DNA of 64,000 nt from Thermogemmata fonticola. Lineage in GTDB: Bacteria; Planctomycetota; Planctomycetia; Gemmatales; Gemmataceae. Shown in pieces: positions 23,631 through 33,727 of this stretch (position 1 is the stretch's first letter; each line of letters starts with the position of its first letter). A model generated the notes under the pieces. The model saw only the letters and a program-made list of their open reading frames with translations, ran no database searches and had not been told where the DNA came from. Both the position numbers and the translations under genes were made by a program. Location: assembly GCF_013694095.1 (NCBI RefSeq), contig NZ_JACEFB010000009.1, positions 1 through 64,000 of the forward strand, written 5' to 3'.

Positions 23631-24362
23631 TTAGGAGCGGGCCGGGGAAAAGGCCGCCGCCAGCGTCTCTTTCCACTTGCGGACGCGATGGGGATCGATC
23701 AGGGCCGTCCGCTTGCTACCGGCGCAGGCGGAGGCGCGCACCGCAAAGTAATCCGGGCGCAAGCCGCGGAGAGCCTTCACATGTTCCGGGCGTAAGCCGC
23801 CGCCCAAGGCCACCGTGATCCCGGCGTTCTGAAGCGGCTCGATCAAGCCCGCAATCGCTTCCGGTTTGAGGAAATCCAGGAGGCATTTGCCGTCCTTAAC
23901 GCAGGTATCCAGGAGGAACGCGGCGAAGCGGTAGCGGCGGGCGAAGCGGGCCACTTCCAGCGGCGGAATCGCCTTGGCCCGCCCCCAGTCGGCGTAGGCT
24001 ACCAGGACCATGTCGATATGGGCGGGGAGTTGGCGGCGGGCTTCCAGGAGGTCTTCCCCCCAGCCGGGTGTGTGCGGATAACCGGATAACCCCCATTTGA
24101 CGTAACGCAGGGGCAATTCCAGGTGCCAATGGGCGTGCACCAGAGCGTGCTCGGACCACTCTCCCAGGGCAGCACTGACCGGGACGCGGCCCGCAACGGC
24201 ATCCACCACCGCCGCCACCACGTCGGCCTCGGCTGCCCCCAGAGCACCGCGGCTCGGCTCCTTGACATCGATCAGATCGGCCCCGCCTTCCAAAGCAGCG
24301 GCCACCTCACTGGCATGACGCACGCTGACCAGCAGTTGCGGCGTATTCTTTGGATTACTCAT
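23631..24362 (-). CDS. mfnB: (5-formylfuran-3-yl)methyl phosphate synthase
   Basis: It makes 4-(hydroxymethyl)-2-furancarboxaldehyde phosphate from two glyceraldehyde-3-phosphates, the first step to the furan of methanofuran. It is 243 residues, a single TIM barrel. The two Lys expected in the active site are visible: DLIDVKEPSRGALG (Lys34) and LLDTCVKDGK (Lys156). The phosphate site LGGGLRPEH also fits. Planctomycetes use methanofuran/H4MPT-type C1 carriers, so the gene is expected. No other C1 gene is in the window. Its ATG overlaps the end of the ASCH gene by 8 nt (24355..24362), so translation is probably coupled. Confidence 0.88.
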   Translation of the reverse strand: MSNPKNTPQLLVSVRHASEVAAALEGGADLIDVKEPSRGALGAAEADVVAAVVDAVAGRVPVSAALGEWSEHALVHAHWHLELPLRYVKWGLSGYPHTPGWGEDLLEARRQLPAHIDMVLVAYADWGRAKAIPPLEVARFARRYRFAAFLLDTCVKDGKCLLDFLKPEAIAGLIEPLQNAGITVALGGGLRPEHVKALRGLRPDYFAVRASACAGSKRTALIDPHRVRKWKETLAAAFSPARS

Positions 24363-24813
24363 GGGTGTGGAATCCTTCCACCGGAAAGAAAAAGGTCTGA
24401 CCCTTACAAGCATAATAGGGAAGAGGGCGGGGCTGGCGGAAGAGGAAACCATACAGGCCGGGATGGAAAGCCTCCGGCGGCTGCAAGTGGCGGGAACTAT
24501 CCGCCGCAAACTGCCCCGCTTGAGTATAGCGGACGCACTCCACCAATTCCGCCATGCCGATGATGCCGCCGCGCAAGGTGCACAATTCCCAGAGGCGGGG
24601 ATAACGGACCGCCGCTTCCGCCACGTAGCGCCAGCCGAGAGCCTCACCCGCGGGCCACTGGGCAGCATGGATCAGGGTCCAGCCGCGATGGCGGGCCGCC
24701 CAGCGGCGCAGCTCGATCGTTTTGACTCCCGCGACTAGCAAGCCGGCCCACGGCTGACGCACGGACAGTGCCCAGCTCACCGCGGAGGAATGACGGGATG
24801 GACTGCGGCTCAT
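24355..24813 (-). CDS. ASCH-domain protein
   Basis: It is a 152-residue protein that is essentially one ASCH (ASC-1 homology, PUA-like) domain. The signature ALSVRQPWAGLLVAGVKTIE (near residue 15) and ELRRW are clear. ASCH domains are proposed to bind RNA; some act on modified nucleosides. There is no direct evidence for this one. The start at 24813 has AGGGGG about 7 nt upstream. The 3' end overlaps mfnB, forming an operon; a functional link between RNA binding and methanofuran synthesis is not obvious. Confidence 0.8.
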   Translation of the reverse strand: MSRSPSRHSSAVSWALSVRQPWAGLLVAGVKTIELRRWAARHRGWTLIHAAQWPAGEALGWRYVAEAAVRYPRLWELCTLRGGIIGMAELVECVRYTQAGQFAADSSRHLQPPEAFHPGLYGFLFRQPRPLPYYACKGQTFFFPVEGFHTHE

Positions 24814-25187: not shown

Positions 25188-28100
25188 ATGCCACTGCGTC
25201 TGGTCAGTCAGGAAGAGTTGCCCGCGCCTTTGTCGGGGTACCGGCTGATCGAGCGTTTGGGGCGCGGCGGCTTCGGAGAGGTCTGGAAAGTCGAGGCGCC
25301 CGGCGGCCTGTACAAGGCGGCCAAGTTCGTCTTTGGCGATCTCCAGGGGTCGGACGAACAGAGCCGACCGGCGGAGCAGGAACTCAAAGCCTTGCGCCGC
25401 GTCCGGGAAATCCGCCATCCCTACGTCCTGTCCTTAGAACGCTTCGACACTATCGAAGGCCAGTTGATCATTGTCATGGAACTGGCCGACCGCAATCTGT
25501 GGGACCGATTCCGGGAGTGCCGGGCCCGTGGCCTGGGCGGCATCCCCCGCGGCGAACTCCTCCGCTACATGGAAGAGGCTGCCGAAGCCATTGACCTGAT
25601 GAATATCCACTACCAGATCCAACATCTGGACATCAAGCCGCAAAACCTCTTCCTGGTGGCCAATCACGTCAAGGTGGGAGACTTCGGCCTGGCCAAGTTG
25701 CTCGACGGCATGTCCGCGACGGTCACGGGGGGAGTCACGCCGGTATATGCGGCACCGGAAACTTTCGAGGGGCGCGTCACTCGCTTCTGCGATCAATACA
25801 GCCTGGCCATTGTGTATCAAGAGCTGCTGACCGGCACACGGCCCTTCCACGGCACCAACACCCGGCAACTGCTGATGCAGCATCTCTCCGGCACGCCGGA
25901 TGTCGAACCTTTACCAGAGGGGGACCGCGAGGTGATCCGGCGGGCCTTGCGTAAAGTGCCGGAAGAGCGCTGGCCGAGCTGTATGGAGATGGTGCAAGCC
26001 TTGCGGGCTTCGGGGGAAGGGCGGATCGTCGTAGCGACCGGCGCGGACGTGCCGGATGCCGAACAGGAAGCGCGCACCCGCCCCACACCGCCTCCCACTC
26101 ATGCGGTCAGCAGTGTCGGAGCCGCCTCGGCTCTGGCCACGCGCATGGCTCCTCCTGGGGCCGGAGGAAATCCGCCAGAGGCGGTCCCGCCCGGCACCGT
26201 TCAGCCGCCGGCCTCCCCTGCTGGTCGTTCCGCCAGCGGCGTCCCCTCCGCCGCTTCCTCCGTGGGCGTCCCATCGCCTGTGGCTTCTCCGCGAGCACCC
26301 GGAAGCAGCACCGCGGCCCTCATTACCCCCCGCTTGGTGACGCCATCCACCCTGACCACGTCCCAGTCCGTTACCCGGCTGCGGCAAGACGGTCTCGGCA
26401 GCGGGCCGCCTTCCCAGCTCGTAAATGCCCCCCGCTCCGCCCCTCCGGAACGCACGGGGTCAGGCGTGCTGATCCCGGCGGGCATCATCGGCTTGGGAAC
26501 CAACGGCCTGCGAGTGGTGGAAGCCTTCCAGAGTTTGCTCCAGCAACGTTACAGTGATCTGCGGCAACTGCCCCACCTGCGCTGGCTGGGCATCGACACG
26601 GACCCGCAGGCCATCTCCAGCACGCTCTCTTCCCCCGCGCTGCCCGTGGTCCCCACCCCTTCGCCAGGGACCACGGCCACGCCGACTCAGTCGGTGCTGA
26701 TGGACAACCCCTGGTTTCTGGCTCGCCTGCAACGGCCGGCTCACTATCTCCAGCATCCGCACTTGCCATCTGTGGAGCAGTGGCTCCCTCCCGGAAGTCT
26801 GGCCCGCCTGGGGCGCCAACCCGCTGCCGCCCAAGGAATGCGGGCCTTCGGACGCCTCGCCCTCCTGGACCACTCCCGCCCCTTGCTCCTGCGCTTGCGC
26901 CGCGAACTGGACATTCTCCTGTCCGACCAGCCTCTGCAACAGGCAGCCGCCCACACCGGCCTGACGCTCCGTTCCAATCACCCGCATTTTTTCCTGATCG
27001 CCGATCTGGGCGGAGGAAGCGGCAGCGGCATGTTCCTGGAGTTGGCTTACTGGCTGCGGCGGGAATTGCGCCGCCTGGGCTGTCAGCCGCGCCTCCATGC
27101 CCTGCTTCTGTTACCCCCGGCCGATCCCCGTCTGCTCCGCTCACCGCAGACGTCCGCCGCTCTGGGCAACGCCTGCGCCGCGCTGCGGGAACTGGAGTAT
27201 TGTCAGTCGGGCCGTGGCGTCTATGAGACGCATCTGGACAATGACGAGGGAAGCTGGCGCGATTCCGAACCGCCCTTTACCTCCCTCCATTTCCTGGTCC
27301 GCCCGCTGCACAGTTCCTCACCGCAGCAGCAGTCTTGGCTCACCGATGCTGCTTACCTTCTCTTCCTGCACCTGTTCACCCCTTTGGGCCGTTACCTCCA
27401 GGAGCTTCCCCGTCCGGCTTTTCCCTCGGCTCATCTGGCCGGGCTGTACCGCTTCGACTGGCCGCGGCGGGAACTGCTCGATGCGGCGGCTCACCGCCTG
27501 GCCCGCCTCTTGCTCCAACGCTGGAATGCCCAAGACTCCGCCACCTACGAAGCCCTCCGCCCCCTCGTCGCCGGCTGGCTGGAGCAACAATGGAGCCACC
27601 ACGGCCTGACCACCGAGCAACTCGTGGCCGCCTTCCGCCACGACCTGACGCTCCACCTCGGCGACGACCCCGATCGCTATTGCGACGCCCTCCTCCAATC
27701 TCTGCGCACGCACACTCCCTCCGCTAGCAAGGTGGACGCTTTCGCCGTGTGTCAGGTGTTGGATCAGATTTTGCGTCTGGTGGGCAAACCGCAAGTGGAC
27801 CCCCAACCGGAGGCGGACCTTCGTTTTCCCCAGCCGATCTGCGATTCAGTCTTTGCGGCCACCTATGAGCGCCTCCTGCGGGAATGCGACGCCGCTCTGT
27901 CCGTCCTGGCGGTTCAGATGCTGGAAATGCCCGGCTATCGCTTCGCTGGCGCGGAAGAAGCATTGCGCCAGATCGAGCAGCGCTGGGATGTACAAATCGC
28001 CGCCTTGGAACAAACCCATCAGGACCTGCAACGGCAAGTCCGCCAGCTCTATCAGCGTCTCTTGCATCTGATTGCTCAGTTGGAGCAGGGCGGGACCTTG

Positions 28101-28979
28101 GGCTTGGGGCTGCGCCGCTCCGCCCTGGTGCAGGAGATCCTGGAAAGCCTGCGGCTGCTCTCTCAGCGGCAATTGCAGTGCCGGATCGTCGAGCGGCTTC
28201 TGCCGTTACTGCGGCATCAGCGGGACGCCGCCCCAGAGTTTCTCCGGGACCTGGCTTTGTGCCGTCAAGCTCTCCGCCAGCTCGGCGAACAGTTGGACCG
28301 TCTCAGTCCGGCCTCCACCGCTCCTGCCATGACTGGCCGCCGCCTCCTGCCCTACGGTGCGACCGACGTCCCCACCGCCGCCGACCGCTTACTCCAGCAG
28401 TTGCTCACCCAGCAGCCGGCCCTTTTCGATTCGTGGGAACCGCGCCTCCAGCAGGCTCTGCAACGGAAGTTCCGCGGTTTGGGCAACGTGTGCTTGAAAG
28501 TCGCCGCCAAGGGGGCGGACTTCGCCGCTTGGCTGTTGGAACAATGCCGAGCGGTGATCGATCCTCACCTTCCTCGCCACGATCCCGCCGCCGCCTTCTT
28601 CGAGTGCTTCCCCCCGCCGGAAATGGCCGAAAACGCCTTACGCGAGGCCGTGGATGAAGCCGCCCCGGACCTCCCGGCGGCCCACTCCGAACTCGCCAGC
28701 ACCCCTCGTGCTGTGGCCCTCCTTCCTTCGGGACAAGCAGGCGAACGCCTCCGCCAAATACTGACCGACCTCCGGCCCGACCTGCCTTGGCATCTCCTCA
28801 CCGCTGCCGAGGACCTCTGCCTGTATCGGGAGGAAGAAATCCCTCTGACTGCTCTGCCCCACCTGGGTCCTCTCGGCCAGCAAGCCTACGAGCAACTCCT
28901 GGCTTCGGACCATCCACCCCACAGCCGGGCGGACGTCCCCTGGACGCAGCCTCCGAATGCCTTTGTTCCCACCGCCTGA
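25188..28979 (+). CDS. Ser/Thr protein kinase fused to a tubulin/FtsZ-like domain
   Basis: It is a 1,263-residue two-module protein. Residues about 18-270 are a protein kinase with intact key residues: LGRGGFG loop (24-30), Lys46 (AAK), HLDIKPQN (catalytic Asp148), DFG (165-167) and APE. The HRD Arg is Leu, so activation-loop phosphorylation may not be needed. A Pro/Ser/Ala-rich linker spans about 280-420. From residue about 430 a tubulin-like fold begins: GIIGLGTNGLRVVEAF (near 432) and the phosphate-loop signature GGGSGSG (608-614), equivalent to GGGTGTG of FtsZ/tubulin and seen in the bacterial Tubulin_2 family. The C-terminal part (about 880-1263) is helical and Gln/Leu-rich. No transmembrane segment is seen. 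An FtsZ-type catalytic loop was not identified, so GTP hydrolysis is unproven. Confidence 0.8.
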   Translation: MPLRLVSQEELPAPLSGYRLIERLGRGGFGEVWKVEAPGGLYKAAKFVFGDLQGSDEQSRPAEQELKALRRVREIRHPYVLSLERFDTIEGQLIIVMELADRNLWDRFRECRARGLGGIPRGELLRYMEEAAEAIDLMNIHYQIQHLDIKPQNLFLVANHVKVGDFGLAKLLDGMSATVTGGVTPVYAAPETFEGRVTRFCDQYSLAIVYQELLTGTRPFHGTNTRQLLMQHLSGTPDVEPLPEGDREVIRRALRKVPEERWPSCMEMVQALRASGEGRIVVATGADVPDAEQEARTRPTPPPTHAVSSVGAASALATRMAPPGAGGNPPEAVPPGTVQPPASPAGRSASGVPSAASSVGVPSPVASPRAPGSSTAALITPRLVTPSTLTTSQSVTRLRQDGLGSGPPSQLVNAPRSAPPERTGSGVLIPAGIIGLGTNGLRVVEAFQSLLQQRYSDLRQLPHLRWLGIDTDPQAISSTLSSPALPVVPTPSPGTTATPTQSVLMDNPWFLARLQRPAHYLQHPHLPSVEQWLPPGSLARLGRQPAAAQGMRAFGRLALLDHSRPLLLRLRRELDILLSDQPLQQAAAHTGLTLRSNHPHFFLIADLGGGSGSGMFLELAYWLRRELRRLGCQPRLHALLLLPPADPRLLRSPQTSAALGNACAALRELEYCQSGRGVYETHLDNDEGSWRDSEPPFTSLHFLVRPLHSSSPQQQSWLTDAAYLLFLHLFTPLGRYLQELPRPAFPSAHLAGLYRFDWPRRELLDAAAHRLARLLLQRWNAQDSATYEALRPLVAGWLEQQWSHHGLTTEQLVAAFRHDLTLHLGDDPDRYCDALLQSLRTHTPSASKVDAFAVCQVLDQILRLVGKPQVDPQPEADLRFPQPICDSVFAATYERLLRECDAALSVLAVQMLEMPGYRFAGAEEALRQIEQRWDVQIAALEQTHQDLQRQVRQLYQRLLHLIAQLEQGGTLGLGLRRSALVQEILESLRLLSQRQLQCRIVERLLPLLRHQRDAAPEFLRDLALCRQALRQLGEQLDRLSPASTAPAMTGRRLLPYGATDVPTAADRLLQQLLTQQPALFDSWEPRLQQALQRKFRGLGNVCLKVAAKGADFAAWLLEQCRAVIDPHLPRHDPAAAFFECFPPPEMAENALREAVDEAAPDLPAAHSELASTPRAVALLPSGQAGERLRQILTDLRPDLPWHLLTAAEDLCLYREEEIPLTALPHLGPLGQQAYEQLLASDHPPHSRADVPWTQPPNAFVPTA

Positions 28980-30467: not shown

Positions 30468-33400
30468 TCAACGGAGCGAACCCAGGATTGGGGGGACGAG
30501 GCGGAGGAAGCGGCGGGCGAACCACTGGGCTTGTTCTTTCTGGAGGATGGCCCGCTCCTGCGGTTCGCACAGTTGGATGGCGGTGTGCCAATCGGCATCG
30601 GCCCGCTCGTAGCGTTGCAGCATTTCCCAAGCCATAGCTCGTCCCCAGTAGCAATTGCGCAGGAACAGTTGGGCACGCTGGCGATAAGGGGTGCCGTGGA
30701 GCAGGGGGGTGAGCAAAGCGATGGCACGGTGGTAGTCATCGAGGCTGTCCGCGGGGCATCCCCCTCGGCGGCGGAGGTGAGCACGATTGCAATGCATCCC
30801 GCCAAGCGAGAGGCGGTTGCCCAGGTCCTGGGGGTGATTGGCCAGGCGGCGGGAACGGAGAACAATACCTTCTTCGTAGAGCAGCCAGGCCTGGGGCGAT
30901 TGGCCGAGTTGATCGTAGAGCAGAACGAGTTCTCCGATCAGGGTGAGGGTGCGGGGATGTTCAGAACCAAGATGGCGGCGGGTGATCTGGAGGTTTTCCT
31001 CGTAGAGAGCCGCCGCTTCCTGGTGGCGATGGAGTTGGTCGTAAATTTGAGCCAGTAAGCGGCGGGTTTCGAGAGTCAGGGGGTGTTCCCGGCCCAGGCG
31101 GCGGTTCATTGCGGGCAGCAGTTCCTCGACCTGAGCTTGGGCTTGGGGCAATTGCCGGTGCAGGAAGTGAGCGTGAGCGACTTTGAGGCGGATGGCGAAG
31201 GTGTCCGGGTGGTCCGGGCCGAAGTGCTGGAGGGCGGTGTCGAGGACACGCTGAGAGAGGGCGAAGGCATCCCCTGTGCGGTGCAAGGTGAAGAGTGTGC
31301 TGGCCCGGTCCGCCTGAGCGGTGAGGGTGTCGATGTGATGGGGGCCGAGGGTCTGCTCATAGCGGGCGGCCAGCTCTTCGAGAGCGTGCAGGGCTAGCTC
31401 GTGCTGCCCAAGTTTCTGCCAGGTGGCGATGAGGTTGTTGTAGTTGCGGAGAGTCTGGGGATGGTTGGCTCCCAGGGTGCGGAGTTGGCGGCGGCGGGTG
31501 TCGATTTGTAACTCCAGCGCTGGCAGAAGTTGTTCGAGATGGACGTACTGCACGGCGAGGTTGAGGGCCACTTGCAAGGTCGTGGGATGATCCGGTCCGA
31601 GATGCTGCCGGTGGTGGAGATAAAGAGGTTCGAGGATCGCCCGGGCTTCGCGATTGCGGCCCATGTCCGAGAGGGCCACGGCGAGGGTATTGAGGGATTG
31701 CAGGGTGAGCGGGTCAGTCGGCCCGCGGGTGCAGCAGTAGAGGGCATGAGCGGTGCGGAGGAGTTGTTCGGCTTTGGGCAGCTCGCCCAGGTAGAGATAC
31801 GTTTTGCCGAGGGTGTCACGCAGGCGGGCTTCGACGAAGGGATGGTCCGGGAAGGTGGTGGAGAGGTAAGGGAGGGCGAAGTCCAGGGTCTGGCGGAGTG
31901 TGAGGTTATAGCCCCGCCCGCCTTCGATGCCTGCGGGCCGTCCTGCGGCCAGAATGTGCCGTTCGAGGAAGTCAAGCAGGGCCTGGGTTTCGGCCTGCCG
32001 TTGTTGGGCTTCGCGAGCGTGTCGTTCGGCACGCTGCTGAGCGCGTTCCGCTTCGCGTTGGCGGGATTCGGCCAGTTGCTGGGCCTGTTCGGCTTCGAGC
32101 CGGCGGGATTCGGCCAGTTGCTGGGCCGCGCGGGCCTCGGCGGCGGTCTGCTCCGCCCGCAGGTGGTTGTCTTCAGCGCGCTGCTTGGCCAGGCGCTCCG
32201 CTTCCACGGCGCGGCGAGCCTCGATCAGGGCCAGCGTGATCCCCGTGATCCCGAGAAGTAAAACGATTCCCAGAGCGCTGGCGGCATAACCGAGCAAGCG
32301 ACGGCGTCGGCGGCGCTCGGCATCCCGAACGCGATTGGCTGCCCGTTCCGCTTCCGCAGCGCGCAGCCGCTGCTCGACTGTATAGCGATACGAGCTGAGG
32401 CGCTGGGCCACGGCTAGACCATCGGGCGGGCGCTGCTGCGGGTCAATCGCCAGGCAGTCGCAGGCCAGTTGCACCAGCTCCTCATCCGCCCCGCATTGAC
32501 GCAGACGTGTCACAATTTCGTCCGTATCCCCTGTGGCCGCCCGGACAATCATCGTCATCAGGCTTTGGCCGCGGAAAACCTCCTGGCCCGTCAGGATTGC
32601 CGCCAGGATGCCGCCGAGAGCGAAGACGTCCGCACGGGCATCGATCTGTTCCCCCCGTGCTTGTTCCGGCGCCATGTAAGCCGGCGTGCCGACCACCTGT
32701 CCCGCGAGCGTGCGGCTATTCCCTTCCGCCGACACGGGAGCCTGAAGAATGGAGTCCCACTCTGGGCGTTCCGGCCTGCTGTCTCCCTCGCCCGAATCTG
32801 AGGCCGGCTTTCCCGCAGACCCAGGGGAGGGTCCGTCGGGCAGAGGCGAGGGCGAGGCTGGGGAGGAGCTGCCCCGGGGATTGGCAGGGGGACTGCCCTT
32901 GCTTGGGGGAGTGGGAGCGACCGGGGAACTGGAAGAAGCAGGGGCGGGCGGAGCCGAGGCGGGCAAGGCACCATCCGCGGGAGCCGAAGCCGGGAAGTCC
33001 CGCAAAACCTTGGCCACCCCCCAGTCCATGACTTGCACTTCGCCAAACGGGCCGACCATGATATTGCCCGGCTTAAGATCGCGGTGAACGATGCCGTGGG
33101 CATGTGCAAAGCCGATTGCCCGCGCCACCTGCTCAAAGACATCCAGCCAGCGTCCCAACTCTTCCAGAGGGTGGGAGCGCCGGGCCAGGATTTGCGCCAG
33201 CGTTTCGCCGCGGATCAGCTTCATAACCAGATACGGTGGGCCGTCCGCCAATTGCCCCAAAGCATAAACAGGGGGAATGGACGGGTGCGAGAGTTGAGCT
33301 GTGATGCGCGCCTCGGTGACAAACCGCTGGCGGTCGCCATTGGGCAGCAACACCTTGATTGCGACTTCCCGCTGGAATACCTCGTCCCACGCCCGGAAAA

Positions 33401-33578
33401 TCTGTCCCATGCCTCCGCAGCCGATCAAATCGATGACGCGATACCCCGGAATCACGGGCATGGAGGGCGGCACCGGCTCTGAAGGCCGGGGCAGCGCGCC
33501 GGGCAGGCACGACACCGTCGCCGCTGCTGCTGTCCAGGAATCCGGCTGAGCACTCGCGGAGTTATCACATCCGGGCAT
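30468..33578 (-). CDS. Ser/Thr protein kinase with membrane segment, coiled coil and C-terminal TPR array
   Basis: It is 1,036 residues. The kinase domain (about 45-390) has the GCGGMG loop (53-58), Lys75 (VAIK), HRDLKPGN (Asp167) and DWG (185-187, the planctomycete form of DFG). Between DWG and the GTPAYMAPE block (from 297) lies an unusually long Pro/Ser/Ala insertion of about 100 residues in the activation segment. One membrane helix follows (about 430-452), then an Ala/Glu/Gln/Arg coiled coil (455-540) and at least eight TPR units with the LGxxHPxTL spacing, which should face outside the cytoplasm. Such kinases are numerous in planctomycetes; partners are unknown. The ATG at 33578 is preferred to a TTG at 33632 that has no ribosome site. 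Confidence 0.88.
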   Translation of the reverse strand: MPGCDNSASAQPDSWTAAAATVSCLPGALPRPSEPVPPSMPVIPGYRVIDLIGCGGMGQIFRAWDEVFQREVAIKVLLPNGDRQRFVTEARITAQLSHPSIPPVYALGQLADGPPYLVMKLIRGETLAQILARRSHPLEELGRWLDVFEQVARAIGFAHAHGIVHRDLKPGNIMVGPFGEVQVMDWGVAKVLRDFPASAPADGALPASAPPAPASSSSPVAPTPPSKGSPPANPRGSSSPASPSPLPDGPSPGSAGKPASDSGEGDSRPERPEWDSILQAPVSAEGNSRTLAGQVVGTPAYMAPEQARGEQIDARADVFALGGILAAILTGQEVFRGQSLMTMIVRAATGDTDEIVTRLRQCGADEELVQLACDCLAIDPQQRPPDGLAVAQRLSSYRYTVEQRLRAAEAERAANRVRDAERRRRRRLLGYAASALGIVLLLGITGITLALIEARRAVEAERLAKQRAEDNHLRAEQTAAEARAAQQLAESRRLEAEQAQQLAESRQREAERAQQRAERHAREAQQRQAETQALLDFLERHILAAGRPAGIEGGRGYNLTLRQTLDFALPYLSTTFPDHPFVEARLRDTLGKTYLYLGELPKAEQLLRTAHALYCCTRGPTDPLTLQSLNTLAVALSDMGRNREARAILEPLYLHHRQHLGPDHPTTLQVALNLAVQYVHLEQLLPALELQIDTRRRQLRTLGANHPQTLRNYNNLIATWQKLGQHELALHALEELAARYEQTLGPHHIDTLTAQADRASTLFTLHRTGDAFALSQRVLDTALQHFGPDHPDTFAIRLKVAHAHFLHRQLPQAQAQVEELLPAMNRRLGREHPLTLETRRLLAQIYDQLHRHQEAAALYEENLQITRRHLGSEHPRTLTLIGELVLLYDQLGQSPQAWLLYEEGIVLRSRRLANHPQDLGNRLSLGGMHCNRAHLRRRGGCPADSLDDYHRAIALLTPLLHGTPYRQRAQLFLRNCYWGRAMAWEMLQRYERADADWHTAIQLCEPQERAILQKEQAQWFARRFLRLVPPILGSLR

Positions 33579-33727
33579 AGAAAAGTTCCCAGAATCCGAC
33601 CTCGTGGTCGTGGTCCAGCCGCTGTTTCCCAATCGCTAGAGGTTTGTCATCGATCGGGCTGCCGCCACTTTAGTGCATGATACGGGATCATTCCAGTTCC
33701 TCGTAGTTGCGGGATGGACGGAGAGGT

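Follow-up and report, generated by a model that had tools for sequence, protein, structure and literature searches.

A reading frame that joins a protein kinase to a tubulin-like domain raises the question of whether its second part is a whole tubulin that could still assemble, and of what assembly would do for the kinase attached to it. We examined such a frame in the window, a stretch of 64,000 nucleotides from Thermogemmata fonticola (Planctomycetota; Gemmataceae), where an earlier note had pointed to a kinase fused to a tubulin/FtsZ-like GTPase; the single frame, both of its domains and the motifs GGGSGSG (at the position given) and GLGTNG (at aa 435-440) held up. The same note took FtsZ-regulating kinases to be known only as separate proteins, which does not agree with the literature: the family was named FtsZl1 by Makarova and Koonin in 2010, with four planctomycete members carrying an N-terminal kinase domain (PMC2875224), kinase-fused planctomycete FtsZl1 was stated again in 2023 (PMC9871819), and in 2024 a tubulin-like domain was reported as the commonest domain associated with purely cytoplasmic planctomycete kinases (PMC11032199). 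The fusion had therefore been described before. In the 2010 work, FtsZl1 could be aligned reliably only up to H5, with T6-H7 and the tubulin C-terminal domain not placed, FtsZl1 operons were found usually to contain vWA, GTPase or OmpA genes, and it was considered, as a less likely option, that FtsZl1 might form no filaments at all (PMC2875224).

Pfam searches with the window protein matched Pkinase at aa 18-269 (E = 5.3e-31) and Tubulin_2 (PF13809) at aa 433-708 (E = 1.8e-29; 103.5 bits vs. a cut-off of 27); canonical FtsZ/tubulin (PF00091) reached 13.8 bits, below its cut-off of 33, and the PknB/PASTA model (NCBIfam NF033483) 93 bits vs. a cut-off of 450, the latter match being limited to aa 18-303. 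We assign the protein to the Tubulin_2/FtsZl1 branch of the tubulin superfamily, among the members with a fused kinase, and we hold this domain identity to be nearly certain. Its start matches that of its homologues (consensus MxxMPVRxxxxxEPLPGYRLIERLG vs. MPLRLVSQEELPAPLSGYRLIERLG in the window), and a promoter scan near the start returned no usable candidate upstream of 25188. The features of the locus are collected in Table 1.

Table 1. Features of the kinase-tubulin gene and its divergent neighbours, in nucleotide positions of the window (aa, residues of the encoded protein).
Feature	Position	Strand	Basis
Kinase-Tubulin_2 fusion gene, type A	25188-28979	+	single uninterrupted frame, 1263 aa, ATG start
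Ser/Thr protein kinase domain, aa 18-269; HLDIKPQN (non-RD), DFG, invariant activation-loop Thr184	25239-25994	+	Pfam; conservation across 47 rows
Pro/Ala/Ser/Gly/Thr-rich linker, about aa 281-424, ~145 aa	26028-26459	+	composition; homologue L084 model
Tubulin-type GTPase domain with putative H7 and T7, about aa 428-740	26469-27407	+	Pfam; AlphaFold2 model; VIA-align
T4 signature GGGSGSG, aa 608-614	27009-27029	+	sequence; homologue alignment
Putative T7 loop TPLGRYLQ, aa 731-738	27378-27401	+	homologue alignment; T7 assignment inferred from position
Predicted C-terminal (activation) domain, first half: putative S7 and H9, aa 747-779	27426-27524	+	model; assigned by topology
Helical and coiled-coil insert, about 390 aa, aa 780-1169	27525-28694	+	model
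Predicted C-terminal domain, second half: putative S8-H10-S9-S10 and last helix, aa 1170-1239	28695-28904	+	model; VIA-align aligned ranges
Divergent neighbour, ASCH-domain protein	24355-24813	-	cluster recurs upstream of homologues, 12 loci
Divergent neighbour, 4HFCP_synth (PF04476), methanofuran-type C1 pathway, start uncertain	23631-24374	-	recurs upstream of homologues, 14 loci

The same genome (4.8 Mb in 61 contigs) encodes two further kinase-Tubulin_2 fusions, both on contig C1 (P0002, 1171 aa, and P0003, 1199 aa), which are its only other PF13809 matches, and a PF00091 search of it found no FtsZ/tubulin. With one genome scanned per species, the related loci numbered 45; almost all belonged to Gemmataceae or to other Planctomycetota, and most had the complete fusion. 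Viral contigs, also scanned, held no relatives of the window protein. With full-length homologues in independent assemblies, the occurrence of the fusion is far beyond chance. Identity to the C-terminal part of the window protein was 66% for the nearest orthologue (L064) and about 35-40% for others of the same type, and ranged down to about 22%. We detected PF13809 in 82 of the 95 genomes of the family, mostly in two to four copies, and in 18 of 292 genomes from an even sample of the phylum. FtsZ is indeed mostly missing from Planctomycetota, as had been supposed (PF00091 in 4 of 244 sampled genomes), and since so few of the sampled phylum genomes carry PF13809, the fusion cannot serve FtsZ-less planctomycetes in general as their division machinery.

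In a tree of the C-terminal parts (a quick search with SH-aLRT as its sole support measure), the window protein fell within a clade of 19 rows (type A, support 96) and P0002 within a clade of 8 rows (type B, support 100), the other groups including a type C with P0003. At five loci (L077, L079, L080, L085 and L092) the fusions form a head-to-tail pair in which the first gene is of type A and the second of type B, and a sixth pair, at L088, is truncated, which makes at least six loci in all. The paired frames of Limnoglobus roseus (L077; 8774-12436 and 12436-16128) overlap by one base. Counting by eye and without regard to pair type, we saw at least 17 genomes in the family survey in which two PF13809 matches lay no more than 5 kb apart on the same contig. 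In the window genome the A, B and C genes lie apart, with A and B not adjacent. We rejected one candidate for a natural A-B fusion, a 2403-aa kinase-tubulin-kinase-tubulin frame (L078, 8848-16059), whose first half is in the wrong frame; long open frames in GC-rich DNA account for this pseudo-fusion and are a trap for ORF-based fusion calls.

We modelled aa 425-1263 with AlphaFold2 from 40 sequences (mean pLDDT 87.5, pTM 0.77; model numbering plus 424 gives protein numbering). All 11 Foldseek rows at E ≤ 0.001 were tubulin (including gamma-tubulin), FtsZ or TubZ. The best VIA-align match was CetZ 3zid (Z = 27.0, 299 residues aligned, rmsd 3.5, chain 1-343 vs. model 4-817), with CetZ 4b46 and 4b45 at Z = 24-25, gamma-tubulin 1z5w at Z = 23.1 and BtubA 2bto at Z = 23.0, and for the tubulins 334-350 residues were aligned per chain. 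Because the N-terminal domain of tubulin, H7 included, comprises about 240 residues, the match cannot be confined to that domain, and at least about 90 aligned residues must belong to the domains that follow. Going by the order of elements, and in model numbering, we assigned S6 to 275-280, H7 to 287-306, T7 to about 307-318, S7 to 323-333 and H9 to 336-355; a helical insert of about 390 residues would then separate these from S8 (750-755), H10 (759-771), S9 (777-781) and S10 (787-795). The last aligned model residues (815-839) are located after the insert, which contains three long helices (460-489, 494-543 and 550-615) plus further helices, and the model also shows the FtsZl1 trait of an FtsZ-like domain followed by a long coiled coil and then a largely helical region. 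What the model predicts is a complete tubulin fold, with its C-terminal domain split by the coiled-coil/helical insert. In a profile-profile comparison with FtsZ (the FtsZ profile being built from plasmid-borne genes), the first ~230 columns aligned (E about 3e-4) and the C-terminal domain gave nothing (E about 0.5); since the C-terminal tubulin domain is invisible to this comparison, the case for it comes from the structure model. A PDB sequence search with the C-terminal profile gave chance-level matches only, and an FtsZ scan of viral contigs gave no match.

The GTP-loop signature of the GGGTG(S/T)G type is present, with Gly609 and Gly614 (Gly185 and Gly190 in model numbering) invariant in 40 rows, as are Gly13, Arg128, Arg132, Asn237 and Glu244 (model numbering), and T1, the DTD after S2, T4 and a T7-like Asp are conserved among the homologues. 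In T4, about half of the homologues have GGTGGG instead of GGTGSG and type C is one residue short, and GTP binding may on this account vary among them. We noted the shortened T4 in the type-C paralogues L013 (7942-11541, P0003) and L098 (8948-12532), as AGGSG-GM and GGGSG-GM, a loss that may impair GTP binding. The putative T7 has the consensus TPxGRxxD, with Asp in 34 of 40 rows, L064 and most type-A proteins among those retaining it, and Gln738 in the window protein. In FtsZ and tubulin, the active site of one subunit is completed by acidic T7 residues of its neighbour; judging by this substitution, the window copy may be hydrolysis-poor and a poor stimulator of GTP hydrolysis by its neighbour.

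The kinase had been thought active, and the alignment agrees: the HxD Asp, the Asn and the DFG Asp (D148, N153 and D165 in the window protein) are invariant in all 47 kinase rows and the catalytic Lys (K46) in all 46 rows without a gap, and from the conservation of Lys46, Asp148 and Asp165 the kinase looks active. The residue preceding the catalytic Asp is Leu in 47 of 47 rows (HLD), which makes this a non-RD kinase; of four other kinases read from the same genome, three carry HRD and the fourth HGD. Also in this genome, a short stand-alone kinase (L006, 1501-2280, a 348-aa frame), with HGD for HRD, is 37% identical to the window kinase. In a full-length model of the 1189-aa homologue L084, the kinase was confidently predicted, the tubulin part had the same order of elements as in the window model, and the linker was mostly below pLDDT 50, with an overall pTM of 0.60 that fits a flexible tether. 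This points to a kinase that sits on a disordered tether, a feature that is new here.

In a tree of the GTPase domain only, the phylum's unfused FtsZl1 proteins (L120-L122 among them) formed one separate clade (support 97/98); from this tree we set aside one unfused row (un_L016; a branch of 4.4 substitutions, the trimming motif having probably hit the wrong site) and excluded two fused rows without the trimming motif (L023 and L026). The fused proteins lay on one side of the branch to this clade, except for one mis-trimmed row, so that the tree allows a single fusion event and does not prove one. Each of the three unfused loci checked had a nearby gene with a vWA MIDAS motif, and one of these genes also matched vWA in Pfam, weakly and below the cut-off. 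Other neighbours at these loci (L120, 1-10980; L121, 1-11008; L122, 6013-14117) are also uncharacterised, partly zinc-ribbon-like proteins.

The usual vWA, GTPase or OmpA operon of FtsZl1 was not found around the window fusion. Its neighbours are the ASCH and 4HFCP_synth genes, for whose recurrence upstream of homologues shared descent of gene order suffices, and, downstream, a small membrane-like protein and then a TPR kinase on the other strand; we recognised no vWA gene among the neighbours examined. The TPR kinase (1054 aa, 30468-33632, minus strand) lies 1.5 kb downstream of the fusion. Outside the main group, at L106 (6029-12343) and similarly at L103 and L108, the fusion follows a same-strand AAA-like ATPase gene, with a divergent FHA-EAL gene adjoining.

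We tentatively favour, at somewhat less than an even chance, a GTP-dependent assembly of the tubulin type that carries tethered kinases and is possibly an A-B heteropolymer. The tubulin part would bind GTP and assemble longitudinally as CetZ or tubulin do, perhaps together with type B, which in several relatives is encoded next to type A in one operon. The coiled-coil insert would project from such a filament, on which the kinase, held by its flexible tether, would be displayed at high local density. The state of assembly would then set where phosphorylation occurs, whether on neighbouring subunits and linkers or on bound cargo. Because the kinase is without the HRD arginine, it may plausibly be controlled through recruitment and crowding and not through the usual relay of the activation loop.

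The main rival to this polymer reading is that the tubulin-type domain has lost the ability to polymerise and now acts as a scaffold or switch with bound nucleotide, the insert dimerising the protein and the GTP state gating the kinase directly. The large insert in the predicted C-terminal domain might obstruct longitudinal contacts, the T7 Asp is lost in the window copy, T4 is variable among homologues, and the non-filament option of the 2010 paper points the same way (PMC2875224); set against these are the predicted completeness of the tubulin fold and the T7-like Asp kept in most homologues, as expected if inter-subunit hydrolysis matters, and we regard the switch as possible and on the doubtful side. 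We consider it improbable that type A, as in the window, serves as a subunit that caps or regulates a type-B filament, binding to it and triggering no hydrolysis. The A-B operon pairs of relatives and the Gln at the T7 position would suit such a role, but L064 and most type-A proteins keep the Asp, so that it can hold for the window copy only, and the type-B protein of the same genome is also without a clear TPxGRxxD in the alignment. That two genes were joined through an assembly or sequencing error, which the earlier note had named as a possible refutation, has practically no chance of being right, since the architecture is identical in the two own-genome paralogues and about 40 independent contigs and we found nothing in its favour.

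Carried to its fullest extent, the GTP-dependent assembly would be an otherwise undescribed cytoskeletal system of Gemmatales, in which two divergent kinase-bearing tubulins, A and B, encoded in one operon in several relatives, co-assemble into heteropolymers; each subunit would bear a tethered kinase, and its activation domain would be interrupted by coiled-coil arms. In this complete form the reading is rather unlikely. New here, and all computational, are the predicted fold, split but complete, the invariant non-RD kinase on a disordered tether, the A-B pairs, the change of the T7 Asp to Gln in the window copy and the separate unfused clade. The predicted complete fold, if true, would change the 2010 view that there was no recognisable C-terminal tubulin domain and that polymerisation was of a new style or did not occur. 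In the literature located, no FtsZl1 protein is reported to have a tested function. With kinase and tubulin in one chain, conserved in a family where no FtsZ was found and accompanied in several relatives by a second such fusion, the protein offers a concrete case for testing how bacterial signalling might be positioned by a cytoskeleton.

Among known systems, the closest is the kinase-fused FtsZl1 of planctomycetes, which shares the N-terminal kinase, the FtsZ-like domain and the extended coiled coil with a helical C-terminal region (PMC2875224), and to which the window model adds a predicted tubulin fold, complete but split. Unfused FtsZl1, from Gemmataceae and another planctomycete family, shares the Tubulin_2 GTPase domain within a long protein but is without a kinase domain, has vWA-type and uncharacterised neighbours, and forms its own clade. 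In structure the model comes closest to CetZ (3zid, 4b45 and 4b46; Z = 24-27), yet CetZ has neither a kinase nor the large insert and is about 13-17% identical to the window model. BtubA/BtubB (2bto and 5o09) have the tubulin fold (Z = 23) and offer a comparison for the A-B gene pairs, as the products of their paired genes co-assemble; they are canonical PF00091 tubulins without kinase or insert. Kinases of the PknA/PknB type phosphorylate FtsZ as separate membrane proteins beside it, and thus also place a Ser/Thr kinase on or near a tubulin homologue, whereas the window protein is a single fusion with a non-RD kinase.
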